Assembly: GCA_030268105.1 (NCBI GenBank)
Contig: BSDZ01000020.1
Span: 1,752,001 to 1,816,000 of the forward strand
Origin: Volvox africanus
Lineage: Eukaryota; Chlorophyta; Chlorophyceae; Chlamydomonadales; Volvocaceae
Length of the DNA: 64,000 nt
Direction: 5' to 3'
Below are positions 1 through 59,857 of the stretch, piece by piece. A program made the translations under genes and the position numbers. Numbering within the stretch: position 1 is the first letter of the stretch; every line of letters starts with the position of its first letter. A model generated the notes under the pieces. It was not told the DNA's origin, ran no database searches, and saw only the letters and a program-made list of their open reading frames with translations.

Positions 1-162
1 ACGGACAGTTCGTGCATCAAAAGAAAAACGTCTCCCTATCACCTGCTCCACTTGGTTTAAAACAGAGGGCAAAAGAGCCCGTACTGCACGGCACTTTGCT
101 ACCATCTGGCCCACAGCAAAGACCCCAGGTGGTGATCCCTCTATACCAGCCAGGGCAAGTTC
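1..162 (-). CDS. pol: pol N-terminus of C1 (partial)
   Basis: Open frame that continues gag in the same frame directly after the UAG at 163-165. The conceptual translation aligns with the start of family A pol: a PPG motif near residue 12 and an ALLPSVL motif near residue 30, where family A has ALLPCVL. No ATG lies near the junction, so expression as a Gag-Pol readthrough product is inferred. It is cut by the window edge before the protease. Confidence 0.75.
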
Positions 163-165
163 CTA
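124..165 (-). promoter_or_regulatory. Putative UAG readthrough signal of C1
   Basis: UAG occupies 163-165. It is followed by a 7-nt spacer (156-162), a 6-nt arm (150-155), a 20-nt loop (130-149) and a second 6-nt arm (124-129). The arms pair with one U-U mismatch, and an inner UGGU/ACCA pairing extends the stem. The geometry is the same as in families A and B. Recoding is inferred from the open frame and the stem; the pairing is read by eye, not folded. Confidence 0.6.
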
Positions 166-2770: not shown

Positions 2771-2940
2771 AGAAGTCCCGTGCGTCCGTCAAGTGTGATG
2801 TGTCGCGCAATGACTCGCTCGATGTGTCCAAGTACACAAGGCAACAATGCCTTAACGGCTGGCCGTAAGGATGACCACCGACCACGCGTTAGTTCAGAAA
2901 TCCCAGGTGGTGCCCCCTCCGCAGGAACCCGGGCAAGCCC
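2771..2940 (-). pseudogene. pol: pol N-terminal fragment of A1
   Basis: Family A pol immediately after the UAG (2941-2943), ending at the C1 insertion. Only the first part of the unassigned pre-protease domain remains. It has no catalytic motifs and cannot act on its own. Confidence 0.75.
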
Positions 2941-7497: not shown

Positions 7498-10005
7498 TCA
7501 ACTGAGGGCGTCAGCAATATTAATTCTGCCGGCGATATATTCCCAAGTACAGTCGAAACGAGATAGATATTCCATCCACCGGGCTTGTCGTTGATTAAGT
7601 GTGGGGACACTCTGCAAGAATGTCAGCGGTTTGTGGTCAGTCTTCAGCGTAAAAGGGCGGCCTTCGAGGTAACAGCACCACTCCTTCAAAGCATGTAGAG
7701 CTGCCAACTGCTCTCCGGTTGTATATTGGGTCTCCACACCCGAGAACTTCTTACTCGTGAAGGCAATCGGTCGTCCTTCCTGCAACAATACAGCGCCGCT
7801 TCCATGCAAGGAAGCATCCGATACAACTTCAACACGGAATGGAAACGAGTAATCAGGGAAAGAGAGGGTAACGTCGTCGGCGACGATTCGCTTGAGCTCT
7901 TCGAATGCCCGCTGACACGCGGGTGTCCAGGGTTCGAGGGAAGCGAAACCTCCTTTCTTCGTCAAATTCGTAAGTGGGGCCGCAATAATGGAGTATTTAT
8001 TGATAAACTTATGGAAGTAGTTGGTCAAACCCAAAAACTGGCCTAGTTCGGTGAGATTCTGTGGTGCGGGCCACTTGCGAACCACAGCCACTTTCCGAGA
8101 GTCCATCCTTATTCCAGTGGCCGACACGATGTGGCCCAAATACTCCACCTGAGGCTGCGCCCAAAAACACTTGGCGCGTTTAGCAAACAATTGCTCCCGC
8201 TTCATCACCTCAAGCACGAGCTCGAGATGCTTCAGGTGCTCCTCCCGCGTCTTGGAATATATTAAAATATCATCCAAATAACAAACGACGAACCTGTCGA
8301 TATACGGTCTGAACATGCGATCCATCACTGCTTGAAATGTGGCGGGCGCATTAGTAAGTCCAAACAAGACCGTGTACTCGAAGTGACCAAAGGGGGTCCG
8401 AAAAGCGGTTTTCGGAATATCAGAGGCAGCAATGCGTATCTGATTATACCCTTGTTGAAAGTCAATCGAGGAAAAATAAGCTGAGCCCTTCAGCTTATCG
8501 AGCAGGTCATCGACGCGCGGCAAAGGGTAGCGATTTTTAATCGTGGTCGCATTCAAGCCCCTATAATCAATGCACATGCGCAACGTCCCATCCTTCTTAC
8601 CGACAAACAATATCGGCGCAGAATATGGCGATGTGCTGGGCCGAATCATACCCTTTGCGAGCAGATCCCCCACTTGCCGCTTCACTTCATCTAGCTCCAT
8701 CGGGCTTAACCTGTACATAGGTCGTGAAACGGGTTGTGCTCCGGGCACAAGAGGGATCGTATGGTCAACAGGTCGCATAGGTGGGAGCCCTGGGATGTCA
8801 CCAAAGACATCAGCATATTTATGCAGGAGGGCTTCGACCTCAAGATCTTTCACGGTGGACTGCGCGGTGGTAGCATTCGATTGCACCCGTGGCCTCACAA
8901 GCAACACATGAGCACCTTTCCGTATCATCCGATCGGTTTCCTTGCACCCAATTAGCTTGGGTTCTTGACATCCGCTGACGATCGCCACCAAAGCAAAATT
9001 AACCTCAGGCGCCCCAACAGTTTCGCCCTCCTCTGGTGTGACATCTTGGTACGACAGGAAAGGTACCTTAGTCGATAGGTTCCCTTTGCACAAACTAAGT
9101 GTGGAGGACTCCATATCGATGCGCGCGCGGTACTGTCGTAATGTCGCGGCACCCAAAATGTACTGTGCCGTCTCCAAGAGACCTTGTAGCACATACGGCT
9201 GGGCCCTAACACGAAGAGGGCCTATCGACAGGCTCAGGGTGATCCTGCCCACGATGGGATGCTTACCTCCATCAGTGAGGGTAACCTGTGCACAATCAGA
9301 CGACTGAGGGGTCAACCCCAAAGCATTCACCTCCTTTGCCGAGATGAAGTCGTCGCTGGCGCCGGTATCCAAGAGCGCCTTCATCAGTCGACCTCCGAGG
9401 CCGATTTCGATAATAGGGACACGATTCCCTGTCGGAGTCGACTCCGCGGAAAGTAAAAGGGATCCTATGGCAGGCTCGAACCTGGTAGGATTTAAAAGAG
9501 GGGCCTCAAACCAAACTTCAGCAGCATAAGGTAGTTTAGGCAGCATCGTCGTTTTACCCGCCACATCCACACCGTTAAACAAAGCGGTGCCCGACTCAAA
9601 TCGGAGGACACATTGCATACCTTCCAACAAAGATGCCACTTTACGTTGGCTAAAAGAGGGAATTAATATACAAGCTGCAGTGTCCGGATTTCGACGGCGA
9701 TACCTCTTGTATCTGGTGAGCTGCTCGCACAGCTCAAATGAAGATGAAGGGATAAATAGAGTGATGTGGCCAGATAAATCGAGGGAAGAAAGAGGGCAAC
9801 GCGGTGCAAACAAATTACACAGCGGGTCGAAATGGTTTAGTCCCGTGCGCCCGTCGAGCAAAAAACGTCGCTCGATAGCCCGCTCGATTTGTCCAAAAAC
9901 AGAAGGTAAAAGGGCCCTTACAGCCGGAAGCAACGATGGCCAGCGGCCACATTCACTCTCTTCAATCCCGGGAGAAGTCCCTTCCTCCACATCCCGGGCA
10001 ACTTC
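7498..10005 (-). pseudogene. pol: pol of B1: pre-protease domain, protease, RT and RNase H
   Basis: A long open frame follows the UAG at 10006-10008. An unassigned domain of about 200 residues comes first, then protease ([11 protein letters not shown]), reverse transcriptase (YLDDILIYS) and RNase H (SDASLHGSGAVLLQ, KTDHKPL). One codon is missing in VLFGLTNAP (VLSFGLTNAP elsewhere) and residues are missing in TGEQLAALHAL. The frame ends at TGA 7498-7500, where other copies have CGA in ALSRHPSL. Catalytic motifs are present, but the premature end removes integrase. Confidence 0.85.
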
Positions 10006-10008
10006 CTA
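9967..10008 (-). promoter_or_regulatory. Putative UAG readthrough signal of B1
   Basis: UAG 10006-10008, spacer 9999-10005 (7 nt), arm CCCGGG 9993-9998, loop 9973-9992 (20 nt), arm CCCGGG 9967-9972. The six pairs are perfect. Spacing is identical to C1 and to all family A copies although the codons around it differ. Gag and pol share one frame across the stop. Confidence 0.65.
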
Positions 10009-13907: not shown

Positions 13908-15108
13908 CCTAGCTAGCCAACCCGATTTTGTTGTGGCTGCTAGAGCACCGGATAGAGGTCTTGAGGCTGTTGGCGCGCGAGCCACTCAAGATCCCCTTTT
14001 CCTTCAGACCCCTGCTCACTTAATTGTGCCGCATTCAGCAGTTAACACCAATATGGACAACACTGCTGGACCAAGGGTTCTGCCATTACCTCAAGCTCGA
14101 GGGCATGATGACATCCCTGAGGTGATGAGATTGTCGATTCCCGTTCCTAGGCTCAATATTTTGCTGACCGACAAGACACCAGGGCATAGCATAGCCGATG
14201 CAACTCGTGCGTACGTGCGTGACGCTAAAAAGTATCTCCAGGCTGTTCATGGTGGCGATAATGACGGTATCAGGTGTCTCTTCGTTGGTAACACCCTCGA
14301 GGGCTCAGCGAAGGACTGGTATCGCAATTTGACCAACGCCCGGGGCAACTATACTTTTGACGAGTTGGTCGCCGCTTTGCTCGCACGATTCGCTACTGAG
14401 GTTCAAGCAAGCGATGTGGAAGCTCGTAAGGTTTTGGCAGCCGGTAGCTACCACATGCGTCGGGATGAAAATGTACCTGCGTACCAGTCATGCTTCGAAG
14501 CACTTGTGACTCCCATTGCTGACCTCACTGAATCCGAGCGTGTCTTTTGGTTTAGGTGAGGCCTGACGAAACTTTTGGCTAAATGGTGTGCTACTGACTT
14601 GGTTGGAGCGCAGATCAAGTCGTATGATGCTTTGGTCGCTTTTGCTAAGGGCACGGAGATACGACTCCTTGCCGGTGAGGAAGAAGTCAAGTCTGCCCCT
14701 CGTGCAAATGCCGTGCAAGTGCAGGATCCGCTTGGGGAAGCTGTAGCTCTTGACCAGGACTTCGGAGCGACCCGCCCCACGCCTACTGCCGCGACGCGAC
14801 GCAGCAACCGGCAACGCCAGGCGCGCGGGGGCGCTAGCTCGGGTGTCCGTGGGTCAGGAGGAGCAGGTCCGAGCTCGGACCCGGCTAAAAACAGGAAGCG
14901 TGGTGGTGCGCCGTCGACGGCAGCCGCACAGCGTTCCGACCCCAATGCGAAGCGGACTCGCACGGACGACACGTATATGCCAAAATGGAATTGCAATCGT
15001 TCCGAATTCGAGCGTCGGAAATTGGCCAACGTTTGTCTACGGTGTGCGGAGAGCCATTCCACGAAGGATTGCCCTCTAATGCCGCCGTTTGTACCTCAGC
15101 CGAAATAG
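13873..15108 (+). pseudogene. gag: gag of A2 (one nonsense codon)
   Basis: ATG 13873 (MSAEHDDTPHTSL), ending at UAG 15106-15108. The only large lesion is TGA at 14557-14559, where intact copies have CGA (FRRGLTKLL). The same codon is TGA in A6. The core (FVGNTLEGSAKDWYRN, YHMRRDENVPAYQS) and the knuckle (CX2CX3HX4C) are otherwise retained. Confidence 0.88.
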
Positions 15109-16722
15109 GGGCTTGCCCGGGTTCCTGCGGAGGGGGCACCACCTGGGATTTCTGAACTAACGCGTGGTCGGTGGTCATCCTTACGGCCAGCCGTTAAGGC
15201 ATTGTTGCCTTGTGTACTTGGACACATCGAGCGAGTCATTGCGCGACGCATCACACTTGACGGACGCACGGGACTTCTCTGCTTCGACCCGTTGTGTAAT
15301 TTGGTTACACCTCGCCGTCCCCTGTCGTCTATCGATCTGTCTAACCACGTGGTTTTGTTCATCCCCTCGTCTCTGCGTGAGATGTCGGAACAGTTGGCCA
15401 TATACAGGAGGTGTAGGCGTCAATATCCAGGCACCGCCGCATGTGTTTTACTCCCCGCTTTCTGTCGGCACAAGGCAGAGGCATCGTTAAGGGGTATGCG
15501 GCATGTCCACCGGTTCGAGCCGGGCACCGTTTTGTTTAATGGTGTGGATCGGGAGGGTACGCTGGCTCCGTGGCCAAGCACATCCTACTCGGTTGACGTT
15601 TGGTACGAAGTTCCTGACGGGGGTGCTGTAGGTTACGGACCCGCCCTAAGTGCACTGACGTTGTCTGCTGGGCAGTCGCTCGTAGATAACCGTGTCCCTG
15701 TGGTTCAGATCGGTTTGAATGGCCGTACCCTGAAGGCACTTGTTGACACCGGTGCCAGCGACGACTTCATCTCTGTCGCAGAGGTGAATGCGCTGGGGTT
15801 GTCCCCAGAGTCGTCTGATTGTCCACAGGTTACCCTTGCTGACGGGGGTAAGCATCCCATCGTGGGCAGGATTACCCTTAGCCTATCGATAGGCCCTTTG
15901 CGTGTTGTGACCCGGCCGTACGTGCTGCAGGGCTTAGCAGAGACTGCACCGTACATAATGGGGTCGTCGACATTACGGCAGTACCGCGCGCGCATCGACA
16001 TGGAGACCGCAACCCTGCATATGTGCAAGGGTACTCTGTCGATTAAGGTACCTTTCCTGTCGTTCGAACATGTCACACCAAAGGAGGGCGAAACTGAGGC
16101 GGTGCCTATGGTTAATTTCGCTGTGACCGCAATGGCCGCTCGAATCGAACCAGAGCTAGTCGGGTGTAAGGAGGCCGTCCGTTTGTTACGGAAGGGTGCC
16201 CACGGACTGCTTTTAAGGCCACGGGTGAGCTGTTGTGTCACCACCACGCAGATTTCTGTGGATCCTGAGGTTGAGGCCCTACTGTCGCAGTATGAGGACG
16301 TCTTTAAAGATATCCCTGGCCTACCACCTATGCGTCCTGTTGATCACACAATCCCTCTCGTGCCTGGAGCGCAGCCTACGGCCCGGCCAATGTACAGGTT
16401 GAGTCCATTGGAGCTGGACGAGGTGAAGCGCGAGGTGACGGATTTGCTCGCGAAGGGTATGATACGCCCCAGCACATCCCCGTATTCTGCACCGATTTTG
16501 TTTGTCAGTAAGAAGGATGGGACCTTGCGCATGTGCATCGATTACCGGGGGTTGAATGTGAATACGGTGAAAAATCGCTACCCTTTGCCACGCGTTGACG
16601 ACCTGTTGGATAAGCTGAAGGGCTCGGCTTATTTTTCCTCAATTGACTTACAACAGGGCTACAATCAGATTCGCATCGCTGCCTCTAATATCCCGAAAAC
16701 CGCTTTTCGGACGCCCTTCGGT
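15109..16722 (+). pseudogene. pol: pol of A2, part 1
   Basis: Same frame as gag across UAG 15106-15108; the recoding arms are at 15116-15121 and 15142-15147. It covers the pre-protease domain, protease ([12 protein letters not shown]) and reverse transcriptase up to TAFRTPFG, where A3 begins at 16723. The frame is open throughout. After the TSD TCGGT the protein resumes at 23918-23922 in the same frame. Confidence 0.9.
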
Positions 16723-20600: not shown

Positions 20601-21392
20601 GCCTCCTTACGCCCGACTAGCTCTGGTTCGATACCAGCGGCCATTGCGGTCACAGCGAAATTAACCATAGGCACCGCCTCAGTTTCGCCCTCCTTTGGTG
20701 TGACATGTTCGAACGACAGGAAAGGTACCTTAATCGACAGAGTACCCTTGCACATATGCAGGGTTGCGGTCTCCATGTCGATGCGCGCGCGGTACTGCCG
20801 TAATGTCGAAGACCCCATTATGTACAGTGCAGTCTCTGCCAAGCCCTGCAGCACGTACGGCCGGGTCACAACACGCAAAGGGCCTATCGATAGGCTAAGG
20901 GTAATCCTGCCCACGATGGGATGCTTACCCCCGTCAGCAAGGGTAACCTGTGGACAATCAGACGATTGAGCCAGTGCCCGGCTCGAACCGGTGGACATGC
21001 CGCATACCCCTTAACGATGCCTCTGCCTTGCGCCGACAGAAAGCGGGGAGTAAAACACATGCGGCGGTGCCTGGATATTGACGCCTACACCTCCTGTATA
21101 TGGCCAACTGTTCCGACATCTCACGCAGAGACGAGGGGATGAACAAAACCACGTGGTTAGACAGATCGATAGACGACAGGGGACGGCGAGGTGTAAACAA
21201 ATTACACAACGGGTCGAAGCAGAGAAGTCCCGTGCGTCCGTCAAGCGTGATGCGTTGCGCAATGACTCGCTCGATGTGTCCAAGTACACAAGGCAACAAT
21301 GCCTTAACGGCTGGCCGTAAGGATGACCACCGACCACGCGTTAGTTCAGAAATCCCAGGTGGTGCCCCCTCCACAGGAACCCGGGCAAGCCC
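17606..21392 (-). pseudogene. pol: pol of A3 (protease deleted)
   Basis: After the UAG (21393-21395) the pre-protease domain is open to about 20974. There a net loss of about 275 bp (A5 equivalent 45640-45922) removes the DTG aspartate and shifts frame. From about 20970 to 17606 one long frame encodes RT (YLDDILVYS), RNase H (SDASIFGSGAVLLQ), integrase (HEDPLAGHPGS, CSLCQRNK, D,D35E with HPQTDGQTERTN) and chromodomain (HEYLVKWTGYTDEHNSWEP). It could only mobilise if Gag-Pol came from another copy. Confidence 0.9.
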
Positions 21393-22628
21393 CTATTTCG
21401 GCTGAGGTACAAACGGCGGCATTAGCGGGCAATCCTTCGTGGAATGGCTCTCCGCACACCGTAGACAAACGTTGGCCAATTTCCGACGCTCGAATTCGGA
21501 ACGATTGCAATTCCATTTTGGCATATACGTGTCGTCCGTGCAAGTCCGCTTCGCATTGGGGTCGGAACGCTGTGCGGCTGCCGTCGACGGCGCACCACCA
21601 CGCTTCCTGTTTTTAGCCAGGTCCGAGCGCGGACCTGCTCCTCCTGACCCACGGACACCCGAGCTAGCGCCCCCGCGCGCCTGGCGTTGCCGCTTGCTGC
21701 GTCGCGTCGCGGCAGTAGGCGTGGGGCGGGTCGCTCCGAAGTCCTGGTCAAGAGCTACGGCTTCCCCAAGCGGATCCTGCACTTGCACGGCATTTGCACG
21801 AGGGGCAGACTTGACTTCTTCCTCACCGGCAAGGAGTCGTATCTCCGTACCCTTAGCAAAAGCGACCAAAGCATCATACGACTTGATCTGCGCTCCAACC
21901 AAGTCAGTAGCGCACCATTTAGCCAAAAGTTTCGTCAGGCCTCGCCTAAACCAAAAGACACGCTCAGATTCAGTGAGGTCAGCAATGGGAGTCACAAGTG
22001 CTTCGAAGCGTGACTGGTACGCAGGTACATTTTCATCCCGACGCATGTGGTAGCTACCGGCTGCCAAAACCTTACGAGCTTCCACATCGCGTGCTTGAAC
22101 CTCAGTAGCGAATCGTGCGAGCAAAGCGGCGACCAACTCGTCAAAAGTATAGTTGCCCCGGGCGTTCGTCCAATTGCGATACCAGTCCTTCGCTGAGCCC
22201 TCGAGGGTGTTACCAACGAAGAGACACCTGATACCGTCATTATCGCCACCATGAACAGCCTGGAGATACTTTTTAGCGTCACGCACGTACGCACGAGTTG
22301 CATCGGCTATGCTATGCCCTGGTGTCTTGTCGGTCAGCGAAATATTGAGCCTAGGAACGGGAATCGACAATCTCATCACCTCAGGGATGTCATCATGCCC
22401 TCGAGCTTGAGGTAATGGCAGAACCCTTGGTCCAGCAGTGTTGTCCATATTCGTGTTCACTGCTGAATGCGGCACAATTAAGTGAGCAGGGGTCTGAAGG
22501 AAAAGGGGCTCTTGAGTGGCTCGCGCGCCAACAGTCTCAAGACCTCTATCCGGTGCTCTAGCAGCCACAACAAAATCGGGTTGGCTAGCTAGGCTAGTGT
22601 GCGGCGTATCATCGTGTTCCGCGGACAT
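21393..22628 (-). CDS. gag: Gag of A3
   Basis: Intact frame from ATG 22626-22628 to UAG 21393-21395, 411 residues. Contains the gag core and the knuckle CLRCAESHSTKDC. Particle assembly and RNA packaging are inferred from the family. The stop is followed by the same spacer, arm and loop arrangement as elsewhere in family A. Start chosen as the first ATG of the conserved MSAEHDDTPH sequence; the frame is open 9 nt further upstream. Confidence 0.9.
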   Translation of the reverse strand: MSAEHDDTPHTSLASQPDFVVAARAPDRGLETVGARATQEPLFLQTPAHLIVPHSAVNTNMDNTAGPRVLPLPQARGHDDIPEVMRLSIPVPRLNISLTDKTPGHSIADATRAYVRDAKKYLQAVHGGDNDGIRCLFVGNTLEGSAKDWYRNWTNARGNYTFDELVAALLARFATEVQARDVEARKVLAAGSYHMRRDENVPAYQSRFEALVTPIADLTESERVFWFRRGLTKLLAKWCATDLVGAQIKSYDALVAFAKGTEIRLLAGEEEVKSAPRANAVQVQDPLGEAVALDQDFGATRPTPTAATRRSKRQRQARGGASSGVRGSGGAGPRSDLAKNRKRGGAPSTAAAQRSDPNAKRTCTDDTYMPKWNCNRSEFERRKLANVCLRCAESHSTKDCPLMPPFVPQPK

Positions 22629-34917: not shown

Positions 34918-36118
34918 CCTGGCTAGCCAACCCGATTTTGTTGTGGCTGCTAGAGCTCCGGATAGGGGTCTTGAGACTGTTGGCATGCGAGACACTCAAG
35001 ATCCCCTTTTCCTTCAGACCCCTGCTCACTTAATTGTGCCGCATTCAGCAGTTAACACCAATATGGACAACACTGCTGGACCAAGGGTTCTGCCATTACC
35101 TCAAGCTCGAGGGCATGATGACATCCCTGAGGTGATGAGATTGTCAATTCCCGTTCCTAGGCTCAATATCTCGCTGACCGACAAGACACCAGGGCATAGC
35201 ATAGCCGATGCAACTCGTGCGTACGTGCGTGACGCTAAAAAGTATCTCCAGGCTGTTCATGGTGGCGATAATGATGGTATCAGGTGTCTCTTCGTTGGTA
35301 ACACCCTCGAGGGCTCAGCGAAGGACTGGTATCGTGAATGGACCACCGCCCGGGGCGACTATACTTTTGACGAGATGATTGCCGCTTTGCTCGCACGGTT
35401 CGCTACTGAGGTTCAAGCACGCGATGTGGAAGCTCGTAAGGTTTTGGCAGCCGGTAGCTACCACATGCGTCGGGATGAAAATGTACCTGCGTACCAGTCA
35501 TGCTTCGAAGCACTTGTGACTCCCATTGCTGACCTCACTGAATCCGAGCGTGTCTTTTGGTTTAGGCGAGGCCTGACGAAGCTTTTGGCTAAATGGTGCG
35601 CTACTGACTTGGTTGGAGCGCAGATCAAGTCGTATGATGCTTTGGTCGCTTTTGCTAAGGGTACGGAGATACGACTCCTTGCCGGTGAGGAAGAAGTCAA
35701 GTCTGCCCCTCGTGCAAATGCCGTGCAAGTGCAGGATCCGCTTGGGGAAGCTGTAGCTCTCGACCAGGAACTCGGAGCGACACGCCCCACACCTACTGCC
35801 GCGACGCGACGCAGCAACCGGCAACGCCAGGCGCGCGGGGGCGCTAGCTCGGGTGTCTGCGGGTCAGGAGGAGCAGGTCCGAGCTCGGACCCGGCTAAGA
35901 GCAGGAAGCGTGGTGGTGCGCCGTCGTCGGCAGCCGCACAGCGCTCTGACCCCAATGCGAAGCGGACTTGCACGGATGACTCGTTTATGCCAAAATGGAA
36001 TTGCAATCGTTCTGAGTTCGAACGTCGGAAAGCGGCCAATGTTTGTCTACTGTGCGCAGAGAGCCATCCTACGAAGGATTGCCTGTTATTGCCGCCGTTT
36101 GTACCTCAGCCGATATAG
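34883..36118 (+). CDS. gag: Gag of A4
   Basis: Intact 411-residue frame from ATG 34883 to UAG 36116-36118. The core has DWYREWTTARGDYTFDEM, as in A6 (REWTTARGNYTFDEM), rather than the RNWTNAR form of A3 and A5. The knuckle is CLLCAESHPTKDC (CX2CX3HX4C). Packaging role as for the family. Confidence 0.9.
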   Translation: MSAEHDDTPHTSLASQPDFVVAARAPDRGLETVGMRDTQDPLFLQTPAHLIVPHSAVNTNMDNTAGPRVLPLPQARGHDDIPEVMRLSIPVPRLNISLTDKTPGHSIADATRAYVRDAKKYLQAVHGGDNDGIRCLFVGNTLEGSAKDWYREWTTARGDYTFDEMIAALLARFATEVQARDVEARKVLAAGSYHMRRDENVPAYQSCFEALVTPIADLTESERVFWFRRGLTKLLAKWCATDLVGAQIKSYDALVAFAKGTEIRLLAGEEEVKSAPRANAVQVQDPLGEAVALDQELGATRPTPTAATRRSNRQRQARGGASSGVCGSGGAGPSSDPAKSRKRGGAPSSAAAQRSDPNAKRTCTDDSFMPKWNCNRSEFERRKAANVCLLCAESHPTKDCLLLPPFVPQPI

Positions 36119-36157
36119 GGGCTTGCCCGGGTTCCTGTGGAGGGGGCACCGCCCGGG
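36116..36157 (+). promoter_or_regulatory. Putative UAG readthrough signal of A4
   Basis: UAG 36116-36118, spacer 36119-36125, arm CCCGGG 36126-36131, 20-nt loop, arm CCCGGG 36152-36157. In A5 the second arm is CCTGGG, so one G-C pair here corresponds to a G-U pair there. Confidence 0.62.
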
Positions 36158-41396: not shown

Positions 41397-42220
41397 TGTT
41401 GTACCTCTCGTTCGTGTTTGCTCATAAGTATCTGCACGTCTGGAGACTTTCGACACCGATGCGCGAGCACTTGCAAGTACAGCAAGGCAAGCGAGAGCAA
41501 ACAAGGACAGCGGAAGACTTCTAGACGAAGAGAGATAGAACTTACAGTCTTACAGATCGGAACGATGCAATGGACGAAATCGCCGTCAGCGCCGGAAGCA
41601 AGCAATCATCACGCGGCGGTGATTAGCGAAGTTCAGGCTTAGCTCGGGCTAAGTAGAATAGCGTATAGAAATAGTAATATAGAACACGCGAGTGTTCTCC
41701 GGTATCGAATGTCTTATCTTGCTTAGCCGTCCTCGCATCTGTTATACTCGCAGCATCGCAATGCCGTACGATTCACATCAGGAGGCCGATCCTAGATGTG
41801 ACAACCCTACTGCGTATAGGCGATGTCTACGCATAACAACGTATAAGCCTTTCCGGCATTCACATGATGCAAGGGTCCGGATAACGATATCCGGTTGCAG
41901 GGCATGCATCGCGATGAGTGCGGCGCTCTCAACGTGTGCTTTAATGAAGTAATATTATATCAGATAATATTACTTATCGTTTCGTAGCACGAGCATAATG
42001 CGCACTTCCATGCTTCGGGCTTTCATGCATGCTAGGTGGATTTGCCATGATGCGATGTCGCGATGGATAATGACAACATGCAAAATGCATATATAAATGT
42101 ACACGAATACATTTATATCATGCAGATTCATTCATATGCAATGTGTTCATCACAATAGCACTTCGCCTTGTAGGATCACATCGACCTACGCATCGGCGGG
42201 AAACGAATCGTAGCACAACA
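41397..42220 (-). repeat. 3' LTR of A5 (824 bp)
   Basis: TGTTGTACC to AGCACAACA. Shares the variants CAAGGACAGCGG, GAACACGCGAGTG and AAACGAATCG with the 5' LTR and with no other element. Confidence 0.94.
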
Positions 42221-42236
42221 ATTATCCCCCCTCCTG
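42221..42236 (-). other. Polypurine tract of A5
   Basis: Minus strand CAGGAGGGGGGATAAT next to the 3' LTR. Confidence 0.8.
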
Positions 42237-42279: not shown

Positions 42280-45200
42280 TTATTGGGTTTGCGTTGCGCG
42301 TTTGCGGGCTTCTTCAAGCAGGGGCTTCATGTCCTGTGAGAAGTTGCGCGCCGGTTCCCATGAGTTGTGCTCGTCGGTATACCCTGTCCATTTAACCAAG
42401 TACTCGTGTACTGTTCGCTTACGTCGGTGTCGGCCCACACGACGCGCGCGATAATCTAACACCCGCTCCACATCGTAAAACTTCTGTTTACCAGCGATCC
42501 AGGTCTCGGGAACTGGTTCGATCGCTGTGGGGGCGTTAGCAGGCTCAGGGACGGGTTCCGTACCACGATACGGACGGACAAGCGATACGTGAAATGTGGG
42601 GTGAATGGTCATATCAGCGGGCAATGCAAGCTCCACAGCCACATTCCCAACCATGCGCACGACAGGATACGGACCAATCCAGCGGGGTAAGAGTTTTCGG
42701 GATCCGTCGGCCAAGGAACGCAAGTTCTTGGTGCTTAGCAACACGAGTTGCCCTTTCGAAAACGTCACATCCTGCTTAGATTTGTTATAGTATTCCGTCG
42801 TTCGTTGCTGCGCCGCGTCCAAACACGACTTCGCGTCTGTGATTCGGGACATAAAAGACTTGGCAAAGAGTTTAGCAGCAGGCACGTTCACTTCCAACTC
42901 ACGCCACACGGGTAGCGCGGGATGAAACTCGTAGTTAAGAAAGAACGGACTTTTGCCTGTAGAGCGGTTAACAGCATTGTTAAGCGCGAATTTTGCCGCA
43001 GTCAAATACGTATCCCAAACAAATGGTGTGCGACCAGCATAATTGCGCAACATATCACCCAACGTGCGGTTTGTGCGTTCGGTTTGACCATCAGTCTGCG
43101 GGTGATACGCCGTGCTCAGGTTGACGCGCATGCCAACTAGTTTGCAGAGCGCTTCCCAAAACTTAGACGTGAACTGTCCACCGCGGTCCGAGATCACATT
43201 TTTGGGAATCCCGTGTAACCGAACCACATTATCGAAAAACAAACGTGCGGTTTGCTCAGCCGTGCAGGATGATGTGCATGGTGCTAGGTGGACCATCTTA
43301 GTCAGACGATCGACCATTACGAACACCGCATCATATCCCCCCTCAGTTTTGGGCAGCGCGACTACGAAGTCCATGGAAACACTTTCCCAAGGCGCATCCG
43401 GGACAGGCAACGGTTGCAACAACCCATGGCCCTTACCGGACAAAGCCTTATTGCGCTGGCACAGACTGCATGTCTGTACGAAGTTCGCCGCATCCTTAGC
43501 CAAACGAGGCCACCAAAAGGAACGTTGCACCAAGTCGATCAATCGCTTGCTACCAGGGTGTCCTGCTAACGGGTCCTCGTGGAACCGCGCAAGGATGTCG
43601 TAGCGTAGCGCGTCGTCGTTCGGAACGACGATTTGCGTAGCTGCACCCTCCGTCCGTAGCCAAAGGCCATTCTGCTTGCGAAGGTATTCTACATTAGCCG
43701 GGTCCGCGAACCAGGCGTCTGCGTTGTAGGCAACCTTCAACCGCTCCGTGAGGTCCGTCGCGATCGGTACCTCCTCGCTACGCGGCCGCACGACGGGCGC
43801 TGCCAAAATTGCAGCGTGTAGCGACGGATGTCGACTGAGAGCATCGGCAATATTCAATTTACCAGAAATATACTCCCAGGTGCAGTTGAACCTAGCTCGA
43901 TATTCCATCCACCTAGCTTGACGGCGGTTCAACGTCGGAACGCTTTGCAAAAACATTAGGGGCTTGTGGTCAGTCTTTAAAGTAAACGGGCGTCCCTCGA
44001 GGTAACAGCGCCATTCCTTTAAAGCATGCAGCACTGCCAGAAGCTCCTGTTCCCCGGTGGTGTAGCGAATCTCCGCACCAGAAAACTTCTTACTCATGAA
44101 AGCGATCGGTCGCCCTTCCTGTAACAATACAGCGCCGCTTCCAAATATTGAGGCATCAGACACTACCTCAACACGAAATGGCAACAAGTAATCAGGGAAT
44201 GCAAGGGTGACATCTTCGGCAATGATTCGTTTGAGCTTTTCGAATGCCCGCTGGCATTGCGACGTCCACGACTCGAGCGAAACGAAAACGCCTTTGCGAG
44301 TTAAGTTAGTAAGCGGGGCCGCAATGATGGAATATTTTTCAATGAACTTTCGGAAATAATTGGTCAAGCCAAGGAACTTACGCAGCTCCGTGAGGTTCTG
44401 AGGCGCGGGCCAATCGTGAACCACGGCAACCTTCCGTGGGTCCATCTTCACACCGGTGGCCGACACAATGTGGCCCAAATATTCCACCTGAGGCTGCGCC
44501 CAAAAGCATTTGGCGCGTTTAGCAAACAATTGCTCCCGCCTCATAACGTCGAGCACGAGCCGCAGATGCTCCAAGTGCTCCTCGCGCGTCTTAGAATATA
44601 CCAAGATGTCATCCAGGTAGCAAACAACGAACCTGTCGATAAACGGCCTAAACATTCGGTCCATAACCGCCTGAAACGTCGCAGGGGCATTAGTCAAACC
44701 AAACGATAGGACCGTATACTCAAAGTGACCGAAGGGCGTCCGAAAAGCGGTTTTCGGGATATCAGAGGCAGCGATGCGAATCTGATTGTAGCCCTGTTGT
44801 AAGTCAATTGAGGAAAAATAAGCCGAGCCCTTCAGCTTATCCAACAGGTCGTCAACGCATGGCAAAGGGTAGCGATTTTTCACCGTATTCGCATTAAACC
44901 CCCGGTAATCGATGCACATGCGCAAGGTCCCATCCTTCTTACTGACAAACAAAATCGGTGCAGAATACGGGGATGTGCTGGGGCGTATCATACCCTTCGC
45001 GAGCAAATCCGTCACCTGGCGCTTCACCTCATCCAGCTCCAATGGACTCAACCTGTACATTGGCCGGGCTGTAGGCTGCGCTCCAGGCATGAGAGGGATT
45101 GTATGATCAACAGGACGCATAGGTGGTAGGCCAGGGATATCTTTAAAGACGTCCTCATACTGCGACAGTAGGGCCTCAACCTCAGGATCCGCAGAAATCT

Positions 45201-46341
45201 GCGCGGTGGTGACACAACAGCTCACCTGCGGCCTTAAAAGCAGTCCGTGGACACCCTTCCGTAACAAACGGACGGCCTCCTTACGCCCGACTAGCTCTGG
45301 TTCGATTCGCGCGGCCATTGCGGTCACAGCGAAATTAACCATAGGCACCGCCTCAGTTTCGCCCTCCTTTGGTGTGACATGTTCGAACGACAGGAAAGGT
45401 ACCTTAATCGACAGAGTACCCTTGCACATATGCAGGGTTGCGGTCTCCATCTCGATGCGTGCGCGGTACTGTCGTAATGTCGACGACCCCATTATGTACG
45501 GTGCAGTCTCTGCTAAGCCCTGCATCACGTACGGCCGGGTCACAACACGCAAAGGGCCTATCGATAGGCTAAGGGTAATCCTGCCCACGATGGGATGCTT
45601 ACCCCCGTCAGCAAGGGTAACCTGTGGACAATCAGACGACTCTGGGGACAACCCCAGCGCGTTCACCTCTGCGACAGAGATGAAGTCGTCGCTGGCACCG
45701 GTGTCAACGAGTGCCTTCAGAGTACGGCCATTCAAACCGATCTGAACCACAGGGACACGGTTATCTACGAGCGACTGCCCAGCAGACAACGTCAGTGCAC
45801 TTAAGGCGGGTCCGTAACCAACGGCACCCCCATCAGGAGCTTCGTACCAAACGTCAACCGAGTAGGATAGGCGTGGCCACGGAGCCAGCGTACCCTCCCG
45901 ATCCACACCATTAAACAAAACGGTGCCCGGCTCGAACCGGTGGACATGCCGCATACCCCTTAACGATGCCTCTGCCTTGCGCCGACAGAAAGCGGGGAGT
46001 AAAACACATGCGGCAGTGCCTGGATATTGACGCCTACACCTCCTGTATATGGCCAACTGTTCCGACATCTCACGCAGAGACGAGGGGATGAACAAAACCA
46101 CGTGGTTAGACAGATCGATAGACGACAGGGGACAGCGAGGTGTAAACAAATTACACAACGGGTCAAAGCAGAGAAGTCCCGTGCGTCCGTCAAGCGTGAT
46201 GCGTCGCGCAATGACTCGCTCGATGTGTCCAAGTACACAAGGCAACAATGCCTTAACGGCTGGCCATAAGGATGACCACCGACCACGCGTTAGTTCAGAA
46301 ATCCCAGGTGGTGCCCCCTCCGCAGGAACCCGGGCAAGCCC
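42280..46341 (-). CDS. pol: Pol polyprotein of A5 (PR-RT-RNaseH-IN-chromodomain)
   Basis: 1353 codons open in the gag frame after UAG. Counting from the TTG at 46248: an unassigned domain 1-165; protease D182-T-G; RT about 360-650 with YLDD at 544-547; RNase H about 690-805 (D698, E733, D760, D802); integrase HHCC (H890, H897, C927, C930) and catalytic D960, D1021, E1057 (35 residues between the last two); chromodomain about 1258-1312 with KWTGY and NSWEP. It ends TAA at 42280-42282. It copies element RNA and integrates the DNA. No lesion seen; no envelope ORF follows. Confidence 0.93.
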   Translation of the reverse strand, partial: GLARVPAEGAPPGISELTRGRWSSLWPAVKALLPCVLGHIERVIARRITLDGRTGLLCFDPLCNLFTPRCPLSSIDLSNHVVLFIPSSLREMSEQLAIYRRCRRQYPGTAACVLLPAFCRRKAEASLRGMRHVHRFEPGTVLFNGVDREGTLAPWPRLSYSVDVWYEAPDGGAVGYGPALSALTLSAGQSLVDNRVPVVQIGLNGRTLKALVDTGASDDFISVAEVNALGLSPESSDCPQVTLADGGKHPIVGRITLSLSIGPLRVVTRPYVMQGLAETAPYIMGSSTLRQYRARIEMETATLHMCKGTLSIKVPFLSFEHVTPKEGETEAVPMVNFAVTAMAARIEPELVGRKEAVRLLRKGVHGLLLRPQVSCCVTTAQISADPEVEALLSQYEDVFKDIPGLPPMRPVDHTIPLMPGAQPTARPMYRLSPLELDEVKRQVTDLLAKGMIRPSTSPYSAPILFVSKKDGTLRMCIDYRGFNANTVKNRYPLPCVDDLLDKLKGSAYFSSIDLQQGYNQIRIAASDIPKTAFRTPFGHFEYTVLSFGLTNAPATFQAVMDRMFRPFIDRFVVCYLDDILVYSKTREEHLEHLRLVLDVMRREQLFAKRAKCFWAQPQVEYLGHIVSATGVKMDPRKVAVVHDWPAPQNLTELRKFLGLTNYFRKFIEKYSIIAAPLTNLTRKGVFVSLESWTSQCQRAFEKLKRIIAEDVTLAFPDYLLPFRVEVVSDASIFGSGAVLLQEGRPIAFMSKKFSGAEIRYTTGEQELLAVLHALKEWRCYLEGRPFTLKTDHKPLMFLQSVPTLNRRQARWMEYRARFNCTWEYISGKLNIADALSRHPSLHAAILAAPVVRPRSEEVPIATDLTERLKVAYNADAWFADPANVEYLRKQNGLWLRTEGAATQIVVPNDDALRYDILARFHEDPLAGHPGSKRLIDLVQRSFWWPRLAKDAANFVQTCSLCQRNKALSGKGHGLLQPLPVPDAPWESVSMDFVVALPKTEGGYDAVFVMVDRLTKMVHLAPCTSSCTAEQTARLFFDNVVRLHGIPKNVISDRGGQFTSKFWEALCKLVGMRVNLSTAYHPQTDGQTERTNRTLGDMLRNYAGRTPFVWDTYLTAAKFALNNAVNRSTGKSPFFLNYEFHPALPVWRELEVNVPAAKLFAKSFMSRITDAKSCLDAAQQRTTEYYNKSKQDVTFSKGQLVLLSTKNLRSLADGSRKLLPRWIGPYPVVRMVGNVAVELALPADMTIHPTFHVSLVRPYRGTEPVPEPANAPTAIEPVPETWIAGKQKFYDVERVLDYRARRVGRHRRKRTVHEYLVKWTGYTDEHNSWEPARNFSQDMKPLLEEARKRATQTQ

Positions 46342-46344
46342 CTA
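46303..46344 (-). promoter_or_regulatory. Putative UAG readthrough signal of A5
   Basis: UAG 46342-46344, spacer 46335-46341 (GGGCTTG), arm CCCGGG 46329-46334, loop 46309-46328, arm CCTGGG 46303-46308 (one G-U pair). A UGC/GCA pairing inside the loop is possible. The UAG is the only in-frame stop between the gag ATG and the end of pol in this otherwise intact element, which argues that it is functional rather than a mutation. Confidence 0.7.
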
Positions 46345-47559
46345 TTTCGGCTGAGGTACAAACGGCGGCATTAGAGGGCAATCCTTCGTAGAATGGCTCT
46401 CCGCACACCGTAGACAAACGTTGGCCAATTTTCGACGCTCGAATTCGGAACGATTGCAATTCCATTTTGGCATAAATATGTCGTCCGTACGAGTCTGCTT
46501 CGCGTTAGGGTCGGAACGCTGTGCGGCTGCCGACGACGGCGCACCACCACGCTTCCTGTTCCTAGCTGGGTCCGAGCTCGGACCTGCTCCTCCTGTACCA
46601 CGGACACCCGAGCTAGCGCCCCCGTTGCTGCGTCGCGTCGCGGCAGTAGGCGTGGGGCGGGTCGCACCGAGGCCCTGGTCGAGAGCTACAGCTTCCCCAA
46701 GCGGATCCTGCACTTGCACAGCATTTGCACGAGGGGCAGACTTGACTTCTTCCTCGCCGGCAAGGAGTCGTATCTCCGCGCCCTTAGCAAAAGCGACCAA
46801 CGCGTCATACGACTTGATCTGCGCTCCAACCAAGTCAGTGGCGCACCATTTAGCCAAAAGTTTCGTTAGGCCTCGCCTAAACCAAAAGACACGCTCAGAT
46901 TCGGTGAGGTCAGCAATGGGAGTCACAAGTGCTTCGAAGCGTGACTGGTACGCAGGTACATTTTCATCCCGACGCATGTGGTAGCTACCGGCTGCCAAAA
47001 CGTTACGAGCTTCCACATCGCGTGCTTGAACCTCAGTAGCGAATCGTGCGAGCAAAGCGGCGACCAACTCGTCAAAAGTATAGCTGCCCCGGGCGTTGGT
47101 CCAATTGCGATACCAGTCCTTCGCTGCGCCCTCGAGGGTGTTACCAACGAAGAGACACCTGATACCGTCATTATCGCCACCATGAACAGCCTGGAGGTAC
47201 TTTTTAGCGTCACGCACGTACGCACGAGTTGCATCGGCTATGCTATGCCCTGGTGTCTTGTCGGTCAGCGAAATATTGAGCCTAGGAACGGGAATCGACA
47301 ATCTCATCACCTCAGGGATGTCATCATGCCTTCGAGCTTGAGGTAATGGCAGAACCCTTGGTCCAGCAGTGTTGTCCATATTCGTGTTCACTGCTGAATG
47401 CGGCACAATTAAGTGAGCAGGGGTCTGAAGGAAAAGGGGCTCTTGAGTGGCTCGCGCGCCAACAGTCTCAAGACCTCTATCCGGTGCTCTAGCAGCTACA
47501 ACAAAATCGGGTTGGCTAGCTAGGCTAGTGTGCGGCGTATCGTCGTGTTCCGCAGACAT
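46342..47559 (-). CDS. gag: Gag of A5
   Basis: 405-residue intact frame, ATG 47557-47559 to UAG. N-terminal 90 residues variable; core about 95-270 (AYVRDAKKYLQAVHGGD, LEGAAKDWYRN, YQSRFEALVTPIADL); Arg/Ser/Gly-rich linker; knuckle C382, C385, H389, C394 in CX2CX3HX4C spacing, one residue shorter than the usual retroviral form. It is a few residues shorter than A3 and A4 because of a small in-frame loss in the linker (RRSNGGASS). Confidence 0.92.
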   Translation of the reverse strand: MSAEHDDTPHTSLASQPDFVVAARAPDRGLETVGARATQEPLFLQTPAHLIVPHSAVNTNMDNTAGPRVLPLPQARRHDDIPEVMRLSIPVPRLNISLTDKTPGHSIADATRAYVRDAKKYLQAVHGGDNDGIRCLFVGNTLEGAAKDWYRNWTNARGSYTFDELVAALLARFATEVQARDVEARNVLAAGSYHMRRDENVPAYQSRFEALVTPIADLTESERVFWFRRGLTKLLAKWCATDLVGAQIKSYDALVAFAKGAEIRLLAGEEEVKSAPRANAVQVQDPLGEAVALDQGLGATRPTPTAATRRSNGGASSGVRGTGGAGPSSDPARNRKRGGAPSSAAAQRSDPNAKQTRTDDIFMPKWNCNRSEFERRKLANVCLRCAESHSTKDCPLMPPFVPQPK

Positions 47560-47958
47560 GGAGCACGAAACGATACCCTAGGTTCGCGTAATAGAAGCCG
47601 ACTTCTATCGCAAAGGCAAGAGTACAAAGCAATTCGGTGAGCCTACCGACAGTACTCTTGAGAAGATTCAGTAAACTCAGCAAGTACTTGCCCAGCTGAG
47701 TCCTGATCTCCGTAGTTTGGGCAATGAGAGTCGCCAACTGGTCCGGACGAAAGCCGGTCTCAGTCGCCGCAGCAAGCAATGCCGGTGCACTGAGATTACC
47801 TGCGACTCAGAGCGTACACTTACACAACAAGTGCAGCAATCTAAGTAAAAGCAATTAAACAATTACAAACCGGAAGCGGCGGCGTCCAAAACGGCGCGGC
47901 CTAGGTCTTCGGCAAAAGTATCTAGCGGTCCTCGTGGTTCGTCGCTGGAACTCGCCAT
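47525..47958 (-). CDS. Leader ORF of A5 (two exons)
   Basis: Exon 1 47871-47958, 71-nt intron 47800-47870, exon 2 47525-47799; 120 residues. Exon 1 begins MASSSDEPRGPLDTFAEDL. After splicing, exon 2 continues GNLSAPALLAAATETGF and carries LIAQTTEIRTQLGKYL. The gag frame is +1 relative to exon 2 with a 35-nt overlap, so the product may be a separate small protein or may be joined to Gag by a second splice or frameshift I could not resolve. Confidence 0.58.
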
Positions 47959-48025: not shown

Positions 48026-48849
48026 TGTTGTACCTCTCGTTCGTGTTTGCTCATAAGTATCTGCACGTCTGGAGACTTTCGACACCGATGCGCGAGCACT
48101 TGCAAGTACAGCAAGGCAAGCGAGAGCAAACAAGGACAGCGGAAGACTTCTAGACGAAGAGAGATAGAACTTACAGTCTTACAGATCGGAACGATGCAAT
48201 GGACGAAATCGCCGTCAGCGCCGGAAGCAAGCAATCATCACGCGGCGGTGATTAGCGAAGTTCAGGCTTAGCTCGGGCTAAGTAGAATAGCGTATAGCAA
48301 TAGTAATATAGAACACGCGAGTGTTCTCCAGTATCGAATGTCTTATCATGCTTAGCCGTCCTCGCATCTGTTATACTCGCAGCATCGCAATTCCGTACGA
48401 TTCACATCAGGAGGCCGATCCTAGATGTGACAACCCTACTGCGTATAGGCGATGTCTACGCATAACAACGTATAAGCCTTTCCGGCATTCGCATGATGCA
48501 AGGGTCCGGATAACGATATCCGGTTGCAGGGCATGCATCGCGATGAGTGCGGCGCTCTCAACGTGTGCTTTAATGAAGTAATATTATATCAGATAATATT
48601 ACTTATCGTTTCGTAGCACGAGCATAATGCGCACTTCCATGCTTCGGGCTTTCATGCATGCTAGGTGGATTTGCCATGATGCGATGTCGCGATGGATAAT
48701 GACAACATGCCAAATGCATATATAAATGTACACGAATACATTTATATCATGCAGATTCATTCATATGCAATGTGTTCATCACAATAGCACTTCGCCTTGT
48801 AGGATCACATCGACCTACGCATCGGCGGGAAACGAATCGTAGCACAACA
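48026..48849 (-). repeat. 5' LTR of A5 (824 bp)
   Basis: Partner of 41397-42220. The right end is followed by the CTTAC duplicate and A6 pol sequence. Confidence 0.94.
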
Positions 48850-49593
48850 CTTACCCCCGTCAGCAAGGGTAACCTGGGGACAATCAGACAACTCTGGGGT
48901 CAACCCCAGCGCATTCACCTCTGCGACAGAGATGAAGTCGTTGCTGGCACCGGTGTCAACAAGCGCCTTCAGAGTACGGCCATTCAAACTGATCTGAATC
49001 ACTGGGACACGGTTATCTACGAGCGACTGCCCAGCAGACAACGTCAGTGCACTTAGGGCGGGTCCGTTACCTACGGCACCCTTATCAGGAGCTTCGTACC
49101 AAACGTCAATCGAGTAGGATGTCCCTGGCCACGGAGCCAGCATACCCTCCCGATCCACACCATTAAACAAAACAGTGCCCGGTTCGAACCGGTGGACACA
49201 CAGCATACCCCTTAACGATGCCTCTGCCCTGCACCGACAGAAAGCGGGGAGTAATACACATGCGGCGGTGCCTGGATATTGACGCCTACATCTCCTATAA
49301 ACGGCCAACTGTTCCGACATCTCACCCAGAGACGAGGGGATGAACAAAACCACGTGGTTAGACAGATCGATAGACGACAGGAGACGGCGAGGTGTAAACA
49401 AATTACACAACGGATCGATGCAGAGAAGTCTTGTGCGTCCGTCAAGCGTGATGCGTCGTGCAATGACTCACTCGATGTGTCCAAGTACGCAAGGCAACAA
49501 TGCCTTCACGGCTGGCCATAAGGATGACCACTGACCACGCGTTAGTTCAGAAATCCCGGGCGTTGCCCCCTCCACAGGAACCCGGGCAAGCCC
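48850..49593 (-). pseudogene. pol: pol of A6, N-terminal part
   Basis: Pre-protease domain and protease (LVDTGASNDFIS). TGA at 49468-49470 replaces a CGA (HIERVIA in other copies). The frame is otherwise open to the A5 insertion. Same frame as gag across UAG 49594-49596. Confidence 0.87.
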
Positions 49594-50829
49594 CTATATC
49601 GGCTGAGGTACAAACGGCGGCAATAACAGACAATCCTTCGTAGGATGGCTCTCTGCGCACAGTAGACAAACATTGGCCGCTTTCCGACGTTCGAACTCAG
49701 AACGATTGCAATTCCATTTTGGCATAAACGAGTCATCCGTGCAAGTCCGCTTCGCATTGGGGTCAGAGCGCTGTGCGGCTGCCGACGACGGCGCACCACC
49801 ACACTTCCTGCTCTTAGCCGGGTCCGAGCTCGGACCTGCTCCTCCTGACCCGCGGACACCCGAGCTAGCGCCCCCGCGCGCCTGGCGTTGCCGGTTGCTG
49901 CATCGCGTCGCGGCAGTAGGCGTGGGGCGTGTCGCTCCGAGTTCCTGGTCGAGAGCTACAGCTTCCCCAAGCGGATCCTGCACTTGCACGGCATTTGCAC
50001 AAGGGACAGACTTGACTTCTTCCTCACCGGCAAGGAGTCGTATCTCCGTACCCTTAGCAAAAGTGACCAAGGCATCATACGACTTGATCGGCACCCCAGC
50101 CAAGTCAGTAGCGCACCATTTAGCCAAAAGTTTCGTCAGGCCTCACTTAAACCAAAAGACACGCTCGGTTTCGGTGAGATCAGCAATGGGGGTCACAAGT
50201 GCTTCGAAGCGTGACTGGTACGCAGGTACATTTTCATCCCGACGCATGTGGTAGCTACAGGCTGCCAAAACCTTACGAGCCTCCAGATCACATGCTTGAA
50301 CCTCAGTAGCGAACCGTGCGAGCAAAGCGGCGATCATCTCGTCAAAAGTATAGTTGCCCCGGGCTGTGGTCCATTCGCGATACCAGTCCTTCGCTGAGCC
50401 CTCGAGGGTGTTACCAACGAAGAGACACCTGATACCATCATTATCGCCACCATGAACAGCCTGGAGATACTTTTTAGCATCACGCACGTACGCACGAGTT
50501 GCATCGGCTATGCTATGTCCTGCTGTCTTTTCAGTTAGCGAGATATTGAGCCTAGGAACGGGAATTGACAATCTCATCACCTCAGGGATGTCATCATGCC
50601 TTCGAGCTTGAGGTAATGGCAGAACCCTTGGTCCAGCAGTGTTGTCCATATTGGTGTGAACTGCTGAATGCGGCACAATTAAGTGAGCAGGGGTCTGAAG
50701 GACAAGGGGCTCTTGAGTGGCTCGCGTGCCAACAATCTCAAGACCTCTATCCGGAGCTCTAGCAGCCACAACAAAATCGGGTTGGCTAGCTAAGCTAGTT
50801 TGTGGTGTATCGTCGCGTTCCGCGGACAT
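49594..50829 (-). pseudogene. gag: gag of A6 (one nonsense codon)
   Basis: ATG 50827-50829 (MSAERDDTPQTS) to UAG 49594-49596. TGA at 50143-50145 falls on the same codon (CGA in intact copies) as the nonsense in A2. The knuckle is CLLCAESHPTKDC. Close to A4 in sequence. Confidence 0.87.
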
Positions 50830-58700: not shown

Positions 58701-59854
58701 TCCACAGAAGTCTGCACGGTGGTGGCAATGCAGCCCACCTGTGGCCTCAAAAGCAGTCCGTGGGCACCCTTCGGTAACAAACGGACAGCTTCCTTATGCC
58801 CGACTAGCTCTGGTTCGATTCGCGCGGCCATTGCGGTCACAGCGAAATTAACCATAGGCACCGCCTCAGCTTCGCCCTCCTTTGGTGTGACATGTTCGAA
58901 CGACAGGAAAGGTACCTTAATCGACAGAGTACCCTTGCACATATGCAGGGTTGCGGTCTCCATGTCGATGCGCGTGCGGTACTGCCGTAATGTCGAAGAC
59001 CCCATTATGTACGGTGCAGTCTCTGCCAAGCCCTGCAGCACGTACGGCCGGGTCACAACACGCAAAGGGCCTAACGATAGGCTAAGGGTGATCCTGCCCA
59101 CGATGGGATGCTTACCCCCGTCAGCAAGGGTAACCTGTGGACAATCAGACGACTCTGGGGTCAACCCCAGCGCATTCACCTCTGCGGCAGAGATGAAGTC
59201 GTCGCTAGCACCGGTGTCAACGAGTGCCTTCAGGGTACGGCCATTTAGACCAATCTGAATCACCGGGACACGGTTATCTACGAGCGACTGCCCAGCAGAT
59301 AACGTCAGTGCACTCAGGGCGGGTTTGAAACTTACGGAACCCTCATCAGGAGCTTCGTACCAAACGTCAACCGAGTAGGATGTTCCTGGCCACGGAGCCA
59401 GCGTACCCTCCCGATCCACACCGTTAAACAAAATGGTGCCCGGTTCGAACCGGTGGACACACCGCATACCCCTTAACGATGCCTCTGCCTTGCACCGACA
59501 GAAAGCAGGGAGTAATACACATGCGGCGGTGCCCGGATATTGACGCCTACATCTCCTGTTCACGGCCAACTGTTCCGACATCTCACGCAGAGACGAGGGG
59601 ATGAACAAAACCACGTGGTTTGACAGATCGATAGACGACAGGGGACGGCGTGGTGTAAACAGATTACACAGCGGATCGAAGCAGAGAAGTCCCGTGCGTC
59701 CGTCAAGCGTGATGCGTCGCACAATGACTCGCTCGATGTGTCCAAGTACGCAAGGCAACAATGCCTTCATGGCTGGCCGTAAGGATGACCACCGACCACG
59801 TGTTAGTTCAGCAATCCCGGGTGGTGCCCCCTCCGCAGGAACCCGGGCAAACCC
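55800..59854 (-). pseudogene. pol: pol of A7 (multiple lesions)
   Basis: Open from UAG 59855-59857 through the pre-protease domain, protease ([12 protein letters not shown]) and early RT to a stop at 58253-58255 (IPKTTF-stop). RT continues with YLDDILVYS but lacks three residues in FGLTNATFQ. TAG follows at 57590-57592 in RNase H, a 1-bp loss near 56990 after the zinc-binding region, TGA at 56217-56219 (CGA elsewhere) after the integrase core, and a TAG near 56027. The chromodomain is at 55800-55982. Non-functional. Confidence 0.88.
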
Positions 59855-59857
59855 CTA
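59816..59857 (-). promoter_or_regulatory. UAG readthrough signal of A7
   Basis: UAG 59855-59857, spacer 59848-59854, arm CCCGGG 59842-59847, loop 59822-59841, arm CCCGGG 59816-59821. Geometry preserved in spite of coding decay. Confidence 0.58.

Follow-up and report, generated by a model that had tools for sequence, protein, structure and literature searches.

How is Pol produced by retrotransposons whose gag and pol genes are separated by a stop codon? The question is raised by a stretch of 64,000 nucleotides (nt) of Volvox africanus DNA (contig BSDZ01000020.1, positions 1,752,001 to 1,816,000 of the forward strand; hereafter the window), which is a nest of long terminal repeat (LTR) retrotransposons. 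In its best copy, A5, located on the minus strand, a single UAG separates gag from a pol gene in the same frame, and two complementary arms follow at a short distance. We propose, with a probability of about 0.8 and from sequence comparison, that this module is a programmed UAG readthrough signal making Gag-Pol, similar to the type III viral signals and with a stem-loop in place of the pseudoknot of murine leukaemia virus (MLV).

An in-frame UAG and a stem at the gag-pol junctions

The module of A5 is composed of the following elements.

46342..46344, minus strand: gag stop UAG, next base G
46335..46341, minus strand: 7-nt spacer
46329..46334, minus strand: 5′ arm of the base stem, CCCGGG
46309..46328, minus strand: 20 nt between the arms (pair 7 and predicted inner helix)
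46303..46308, minus strand: 3′ arm of the base stem, CCTGGG

The eight other copies of the window carry the same module.

2902..2943, minus strand: UAG and stem module of A1
15106..15147, plus strand: UAG and stem module of A2
21354..21395, minus strand: UAG and stem module of A3
36116..36157, plus strand: UAG and stem module of A4, CCCGGG/CCCGGG
49555..49596, minus strand: UAG and stem module of A6
59816..59857, minus strand: UAG and stem module of A7
9967..10008, minus strand: UAG and stem module of B1, CCCGGG/CCCGGG
124..165, minus strand: UAG and stem module of C1, 5′ arm CCCTGG with a mismatch private to this copy

A preliminary description of the window had placed a single in-frame UAG between gag and pol, followed in six copies by a 7-nt spacer, a 6-nt arm, a 20-nt loop and a second 6-nt arm. 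The UAG was found at all nine gag-pol junctions, including those of A1, A3 and A6, and the layout was exact in the six 42-nt cases quoted. The arm sequences were also as described, but the mismatch in CCCTGG is a peculiarity of C1, since CCCAGG/CCTGGG, with all six base pairs, is present in 20 of the 21 C copies that were chosen independently of the junction. Likewise, the length of the 20-nt loop was right, but pairing is predicted in part of it, through a seventh pair of the base stem and an inner helix that varies from family to family. The pattern TAG-N7-CCC[GT]GG gave 15 matches in the window against 0.58 expected from shuffles; nine of these are the junctions, and the six others belong to another repeat (five copies) or are single (one). 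The frames around the nine UAGs are open for 75 to 496 codons upstream and for 41 to 1353 codons downstream, that of C1 leaving the window after 54.

The frames and LTRs of A5 are as follows.

48026..48858, minus strand: 5′ LTR, ends approximate; 833 base pairs (bp), 99.0% identity with the other LTR
46345..47577, minus strand: gag frame, 411 codons from stop to stop
42280..46341, minus strand: pol frame, 1353 codons and TAA, same frame as gag
41397..42229, minus strand: 3′ LTR, ends approximate; 833 bp

Near the end of A5 gag lies a CX2CX3HX4C knuckle, the last cysteine of which is 12 codons before the end of the frame. This knuckle, common to A and B, is one residue shorter than the CX2CX4HX4C of C and D. 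The pol frame contains, in order, a linker, a methyltransferase-fold domain, protease, reverse transcriptase, RNase H, integrase, SH3 and a chromodomain, and Pfam detected the last six in this order. The domain order and the C-terminal chromodomain identify the elements as chromodomain Ty3/gypsy retrotransposons, or chromoviruses. The eight other copies are decayed or truncated by the end of the window, and Pol is unbroken only in A5. The pol ends had been given as TAA or TGA. This holds for A5 (TAA at codon 1354) and for A4, which reaches a TGA at codon 1354 after an in-frame TGA at codon 846 and a TAA at codon 1258, but in A1, A2, A3, A6, A7 and B1 the first stop downstream sits well within Pol and reflects decay.

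The UAG is conserved within and between diverged families

With the stop codon left open in the search pattern, TAG was found in 1068 of the 1070 A-type junctions of the genome (two were not TAG). The check for copies in which a sense codon or a change of frame replaces the stop thus came out in favour of the preliminary description. The same kind of pattern gave 212 C-type matches, with TAG in 100 of 100 among the matches listed, and a pattern in which TAG was fixed matched 414 B- and C-type junctions. Because picking loci by their stop was to be avoided, 52 loci were chosen without regard to it, by means of a 301-base DNA query or the Pol protein (L001-L008 and L069-L112; 28 A, 21 C and 3 D, with L001 and L079 corresponding to A5 and C1 of the window). 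All 52 carry TAG, the junction having been located in 51 through a pattern in the peptide downstream of the stop and in one by eye, and the next base is G in 51 of them. The public V. africanus annotation contains Gag models that stop at this UAG, six of 12 among the proteins listed ending in PPFVPxPK.

Conservation within a family mostly reflects recent descent, and it is therefore the comparison between families that counts. Protein identity between families A and C is 0.31 at the end of gag and, for the first 400 codons of pol, 0.49. At shared fourfold sites their identity is 0.14 in gag (21 sites) and 0.32 in pol (111 sites), which is near saturation; A and B are closer (0.33 in gag, 0.59 in pol). 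A fourth family, D, was recovered by a genome search with a metagenomic Pol protein alone. The three copies fetched have a gag CCHC knuckle, the UAG, a 7-nt spacer, CCCAGG, 20 nt and CCTGGG. As judged from these alignments, the UAG and stem are common to A and C despite nearly saturated fourfold sites, and ancestry alone is no explanation for this.

Five near-identical places (L113-L117, group E) were also seen, which have a gag tail, the UAG and a stem CCCAGGT/ACCTGGG, while the pol frame is gone. We consider group E as a fossil or captured junction and left it out of the count of living families. The distances of 7 and 20 nt are identical in the four families and in group E. Genome searches with the proteins P0009 and P0008 yielded only copies with frames of C length and no new family, and two scans of viral contigs for relatives gave 1 and 56 stretches matching the pattern, none of them confirmed. 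The metagenomic Pol open reading frames P0001-P0006 start at the equivalents of A5 residues 5-37; these starts fit a break at that place, of whatever kind. In one C copy (L064, around 1546-1582), TTTTAGGG-like repeats, which correspond to the Chlamydomonas-type telomere unit, break the element just behind its 3′ arm, in the interior of a contig.

The pairing exceeds what the protein sequence imposes

Six pairs out of six are formed in 51 of the 52 stop-blind loci. Pair 4 occurs as G-C, G-U or A-U, and pair 7 as U-A, U-G, A-U or C-G, this pair being absent in 18 of 21 C copies. Covariation is thus seen at two of the seven pairs. None of 500 shuffles attained the observed covariation score in either of two alignments, one of 33 distinct rows (identical rows entered once, and L012 left out for a deletion in its 3′ arm) and one of 12 rows that represent five groups; slid versions scored lower. 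RNAalifold chose the same seven pairs, with two extra inner pairs in the 12-row set. This covariation supports the stem of the preliminary description, which had been read by eye.

The shuffles ignore relatedness, and for this reason more weight is given to synonymous recoding and to a register scan. In the recoding test, the peptide was kept and the codons were redrawn from the usage of the element, with 2000 draws for each copy. The probability of obtaining at least the observed number of pairs, of seven, was 0.006-0.010 for A (four copies), 0.006-0.007 for B (three), 0.006-0.076 for C (three copies, of which two form 6 of the 7 pairs) and 0.015-0.016 for D (two). The stem support holds in this test, after correction for coding; on this comparison of sequences, the paired arms are not explained by coding constraint. 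The register scan covered one copy each of A, B and C over aligned gag ends and pol starts. Only two of 61,716 combinations of position and loop gave 6 bp in all three: the stem of the module, and another at +767 with a 30-nt loop.

As a control, the loose pattern TAGG...TTGCCC was used, which gave 32 matches versus 5 for the reversed pattern. Among the 20 matches fetched, 13 lie in these elements (12 with six of six pairs) and seven lie outside, with 0-4 pairs. The linker was compared with the pol codons that follow it by the ratio of identical to synonymous codons, for codons 1-18 versus 19-400. The ratios were 6:1 versus 62:118 for A-C, 5:2 versus 135:103 for A-B and 3:3 versus 67:110 for B-C, so that only the A-C pair points to a constraint below the protein level. 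We also observed, at positions 24-30 counted from the start of the UAG, an apical purine-rich GA-G core kept in all families; it may represent a shared glutamate or a loop contact.

A proposed readthrough mechanism and its alternatives

In the mechanism that we propose, Gag would be released by most ribosomes, which would terminate at the UAG just past its zinc knuckle. The remaining few, whose share is inferred like the amino acid that they insert, would decode the UAG through a near-cognate tRNA and stay in frame into Pol, giving a small and fixed amount of Gag-Pol. With the UAG in the A site, a stem-loop folded in the cell 7 nt past the stop would sit at the mRNA entry of the ribosome, and this putatively required structure is taken to tip the balance toward decoding over release. 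The downstream frame is the continuation of the gag frame in A, B, C and D. No AUG occurs in pol before codon 92 in A and codon 130 in B, nor in the about 60 codons fetched for D, and a conserved folded domain begins near pol residue 28. Separate initiation would therefore cost A and B that domain.

Several results weigh against this reading. The B junction counts come from a pattern with TAG fixed, unlike those of A and C. In most A, B and C rows of the alignments, the 5′ arm and the stop lay within the search pattern (the 3′ arm did not). Five of the seven pairs are invariant among 12 family representatives and thus uninformative, and neither the counts of pairs changed on both sides nor those of pair types exceeded the shuffles. 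In an unconstrained 81-nt fold starting from the UAG, the stem is absent in A5 (z +1.45) and A4 (z +1.30). Compared with dinucleotide shuffles, the energy of A is ordinary (z -0.6 to +1.7), and B and C reach at best z -2.5. Against a synonymous null the folding energies are unremarkable (P of 0.06-0.18 in A, 0.0005-0.012 in B, 0.015-0.054 in C and 0.002-0.006 in D), those of A not falling below the recoded versions at P 0.05. Finally, C has a methionine at pol codon 20, so that separate initiation could retain its folded domain. By these models, the folding energies are ordinary for GC-rich sequence of this kind. The first 10 nt, counted from the UAG, would be covered by a ribosome sitting at this codon. 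When they were omitted, the arm-to-arm fold predicted the stem with a mean probability of 0.98-1.00 in 12 of 13 copies and of 0.21 in C1, and a 65-nt fold gave 0.73-1.00 in 12 copies and 0.04 in C1. Candidates of 5-8 bp for the second stem of a pseudoknot were seen in single copies, none of them in a register common to A, B, C and D.

These modest energies would suit readthrough for which the UAG and its immediate surroundings suffice, with a stem that is incidental or has another role such as packaging. Leaky stop contexts are able to act alone (PMC3542737), and some linker residues (A, E and PG), common to the families, mean that part of the arms is fixed by the protein. We nevertheless consider this explanation unlikely: the same distances of 7 and 20 nt recur in four families and one fossil group, the pairing is held although codon 4 is R or Q and goes beyond synonymous chance, and a 3′ structure is generally part of type III signals (PMC3542737). 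Somewhat less likely again is that the UAG is the true end of Gag and that Pol arises by reinitiation or internal entry, by splicing that removes the UAG, or by RNA editing. Splicing between gag-prot and pol is described in Ogre elements (PMC6317226), and the methionine of C would be suited to initiation, but the missing AUGs of A, B and D and the conservation of the domain from residue 28 speak against such routes. Moreover, pol directly continues the gag frame in all four families, which neither splicing nor reinitiation needs.

Two further explanations appear far less probable than these. If the UAG were a defect that dead copies had passed on by descent, the broken state of most window copies would be expected, but 33 of 44 copies in A, 5 of 18 in B and 7 of 13 in C are free of any other in-frame stop from 450 nt before to 900 nt after the UAG, and the UAG is common to families saturated at fourfold sites; we regard a lesion as highly improbable. 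The least credible of all is that the host decodes UAG as an amino acid and gag-pol is one ordinary frame. Stop-codon reassignment does occur in other eukaryotes, including some green algae. However, no other UAG exists in the 1353 codons of A5 pol, and 33 of 34, 30 of 30 and 35 of 35 scored copies (overlapping sets, nearly all with a frame length of 1356, as in C) are free of stops in pol. Sense UAGs would be scattered throughout the frame; unbroken Pol frames devoid of further UAG thus indicate that UAG is not a sense codon in this host, and a different host code was rejected on the basis of these intact frames. A scan of the window for tRNA genes found none, which has no bearing on the host genetic code.

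Comparison with known readthrough systems

In type III signals, either a G or a purine-rich octanucleotide comes next to the UAG, and a 3′ structure typically starts about 8 nt after the stop (PMC3542737). The stop-blind loci agree with the first part (UAG in 52 and next G in 51 of 52, the octanucleotide not being purine-rich), and sequence comparison places a putative stem from nt 8 after the UAG, in agreement with the second. In MLV, 8 nt separate the UAG from a pseudoknot, and readthrough amounts to 5-10% (PMC4178896). As in this gammaretrovirus, a UAG-G lies between gag and pol in one frame, with a structure 7-8 nt downstream (PMC4178896, PMC3542737). The likeness to MLV drawn in the preliminary description is borne out for the in-frame UAG and for the 3′ stem, which is conserved and lies close to the distance given in the literature. 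The MLV pseudoknot has two stems; in the Volvox elements, which are algal chromoviruses, one stem-loop is supported, and no second stem in a register common to A, B, C and D was found. Epsilonretroviruses (UAG-R and an extended stem-loop) and tombusvirids (UAG-GGR and a proximal structure) resemble the module as type III signals but have unrelated genes and hosts, and tombusvirids additionally require long-distance pairing (PMC3542737).

The contrast that had been drawn with the frameshift or single-frame strategies common in Ty3/gypsy elements misses the fission-yeast chromoviruses. In Tj1, Tosmo1-3 and Tcry1, Gag and Pol are separated by an in-frame UGA with a conserved context of 8 nt, and removal of the stop from Tj1 leaves virtually no transposition (PMC10085805, PMC4600332). 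These elements are also Ty3/gypsy chromoviruses with an in-frame gag-pol stop. However, theirs is a UGA preceded by GAA and followed by CT, in a Gag lacking CCHC (PMC10085805), in contrast to the UAG and gag knuckle of Volvox, and the parts of PMC10085805 and PMC4600332 drawn on here name no 3′ structure. The UAG, the 3′ stem and the gag knuckle distinguish the algal elements from the fission-yeast UGA type. Tca2, a Ty1/copia element of Candida albicans, has an in-frame UGA at its gag-pol boundary and perhaps a pseudoknot 3′ of it; this element differs in superfamily and stop, and its junction alone gave no readthrough in Saccharomyces cerevisiae (PMC2194720), which is a caution here. Chlamyvir is a clade of chromodomain Ty3/gypsy elements reported as specific to algae (PMC6317226, PMC3350952). 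The present elements are of this type and fit the clade by their algal host; the parts of these two papers drawn on here make no mention of a gag stop in Chlamyvir. Among the matches listed in the open-licence literature, no report of a gag-pol stop in algal chromoviruses was found, which is a weak negative.

If the proposal is true, UAG readthrough with a downstream structure, as in gammaretroviruses, would also have arisen in green-algal retrotransposons, beside the fission-yeast UGA type. The chances are about even, in our view, for the broader idea of an old, self-contained signal of green-algal chromoviruses, consisting of UAG-G and one stem-loop at a fixed distance with no pseudoknot needed, which at least four families, at or beyond the verge of saturation at synonymous sites, would have inherited, and which would yield a Gag-Pol whose Pol starts in an unannotated methyltransferase-fold domain. 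Such a signal would be, within the literature searched, the first in a green-lineage Ty3/gypsy element to combine readthrough with a conserved RNA structure. Four diverged natural versions in one genome, together with more than 1000 junctions, would offer a compact model for the minimal readthrough structure, in a host group with a laboratory genetic system (Chlamydomonas). For annotation, the stop splitting these gag and pol genes is probably no mutation.

Open frames opposite to gag and pol

Several copies carry recurrent open frames, of 215 and 212 codons, on the strand opposite to the end of gag and the start of pol.

14448-15095, minus strand: opposite the end of gag
21406-22053, plus strand: opposite the end of gag
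35458-36105, minus strand: opposite the end of gag
49607-50254, plus strand: opposite the end of gag
15705-16343, minus strand: opposite the start of pol
36715-37353, minus strand: opposite the start of pol
45107-45745, plus strand: opposite the start of pol
58620-59258, plus strand: opposite the start of pol

These frames are probably a by-product of codon usage.
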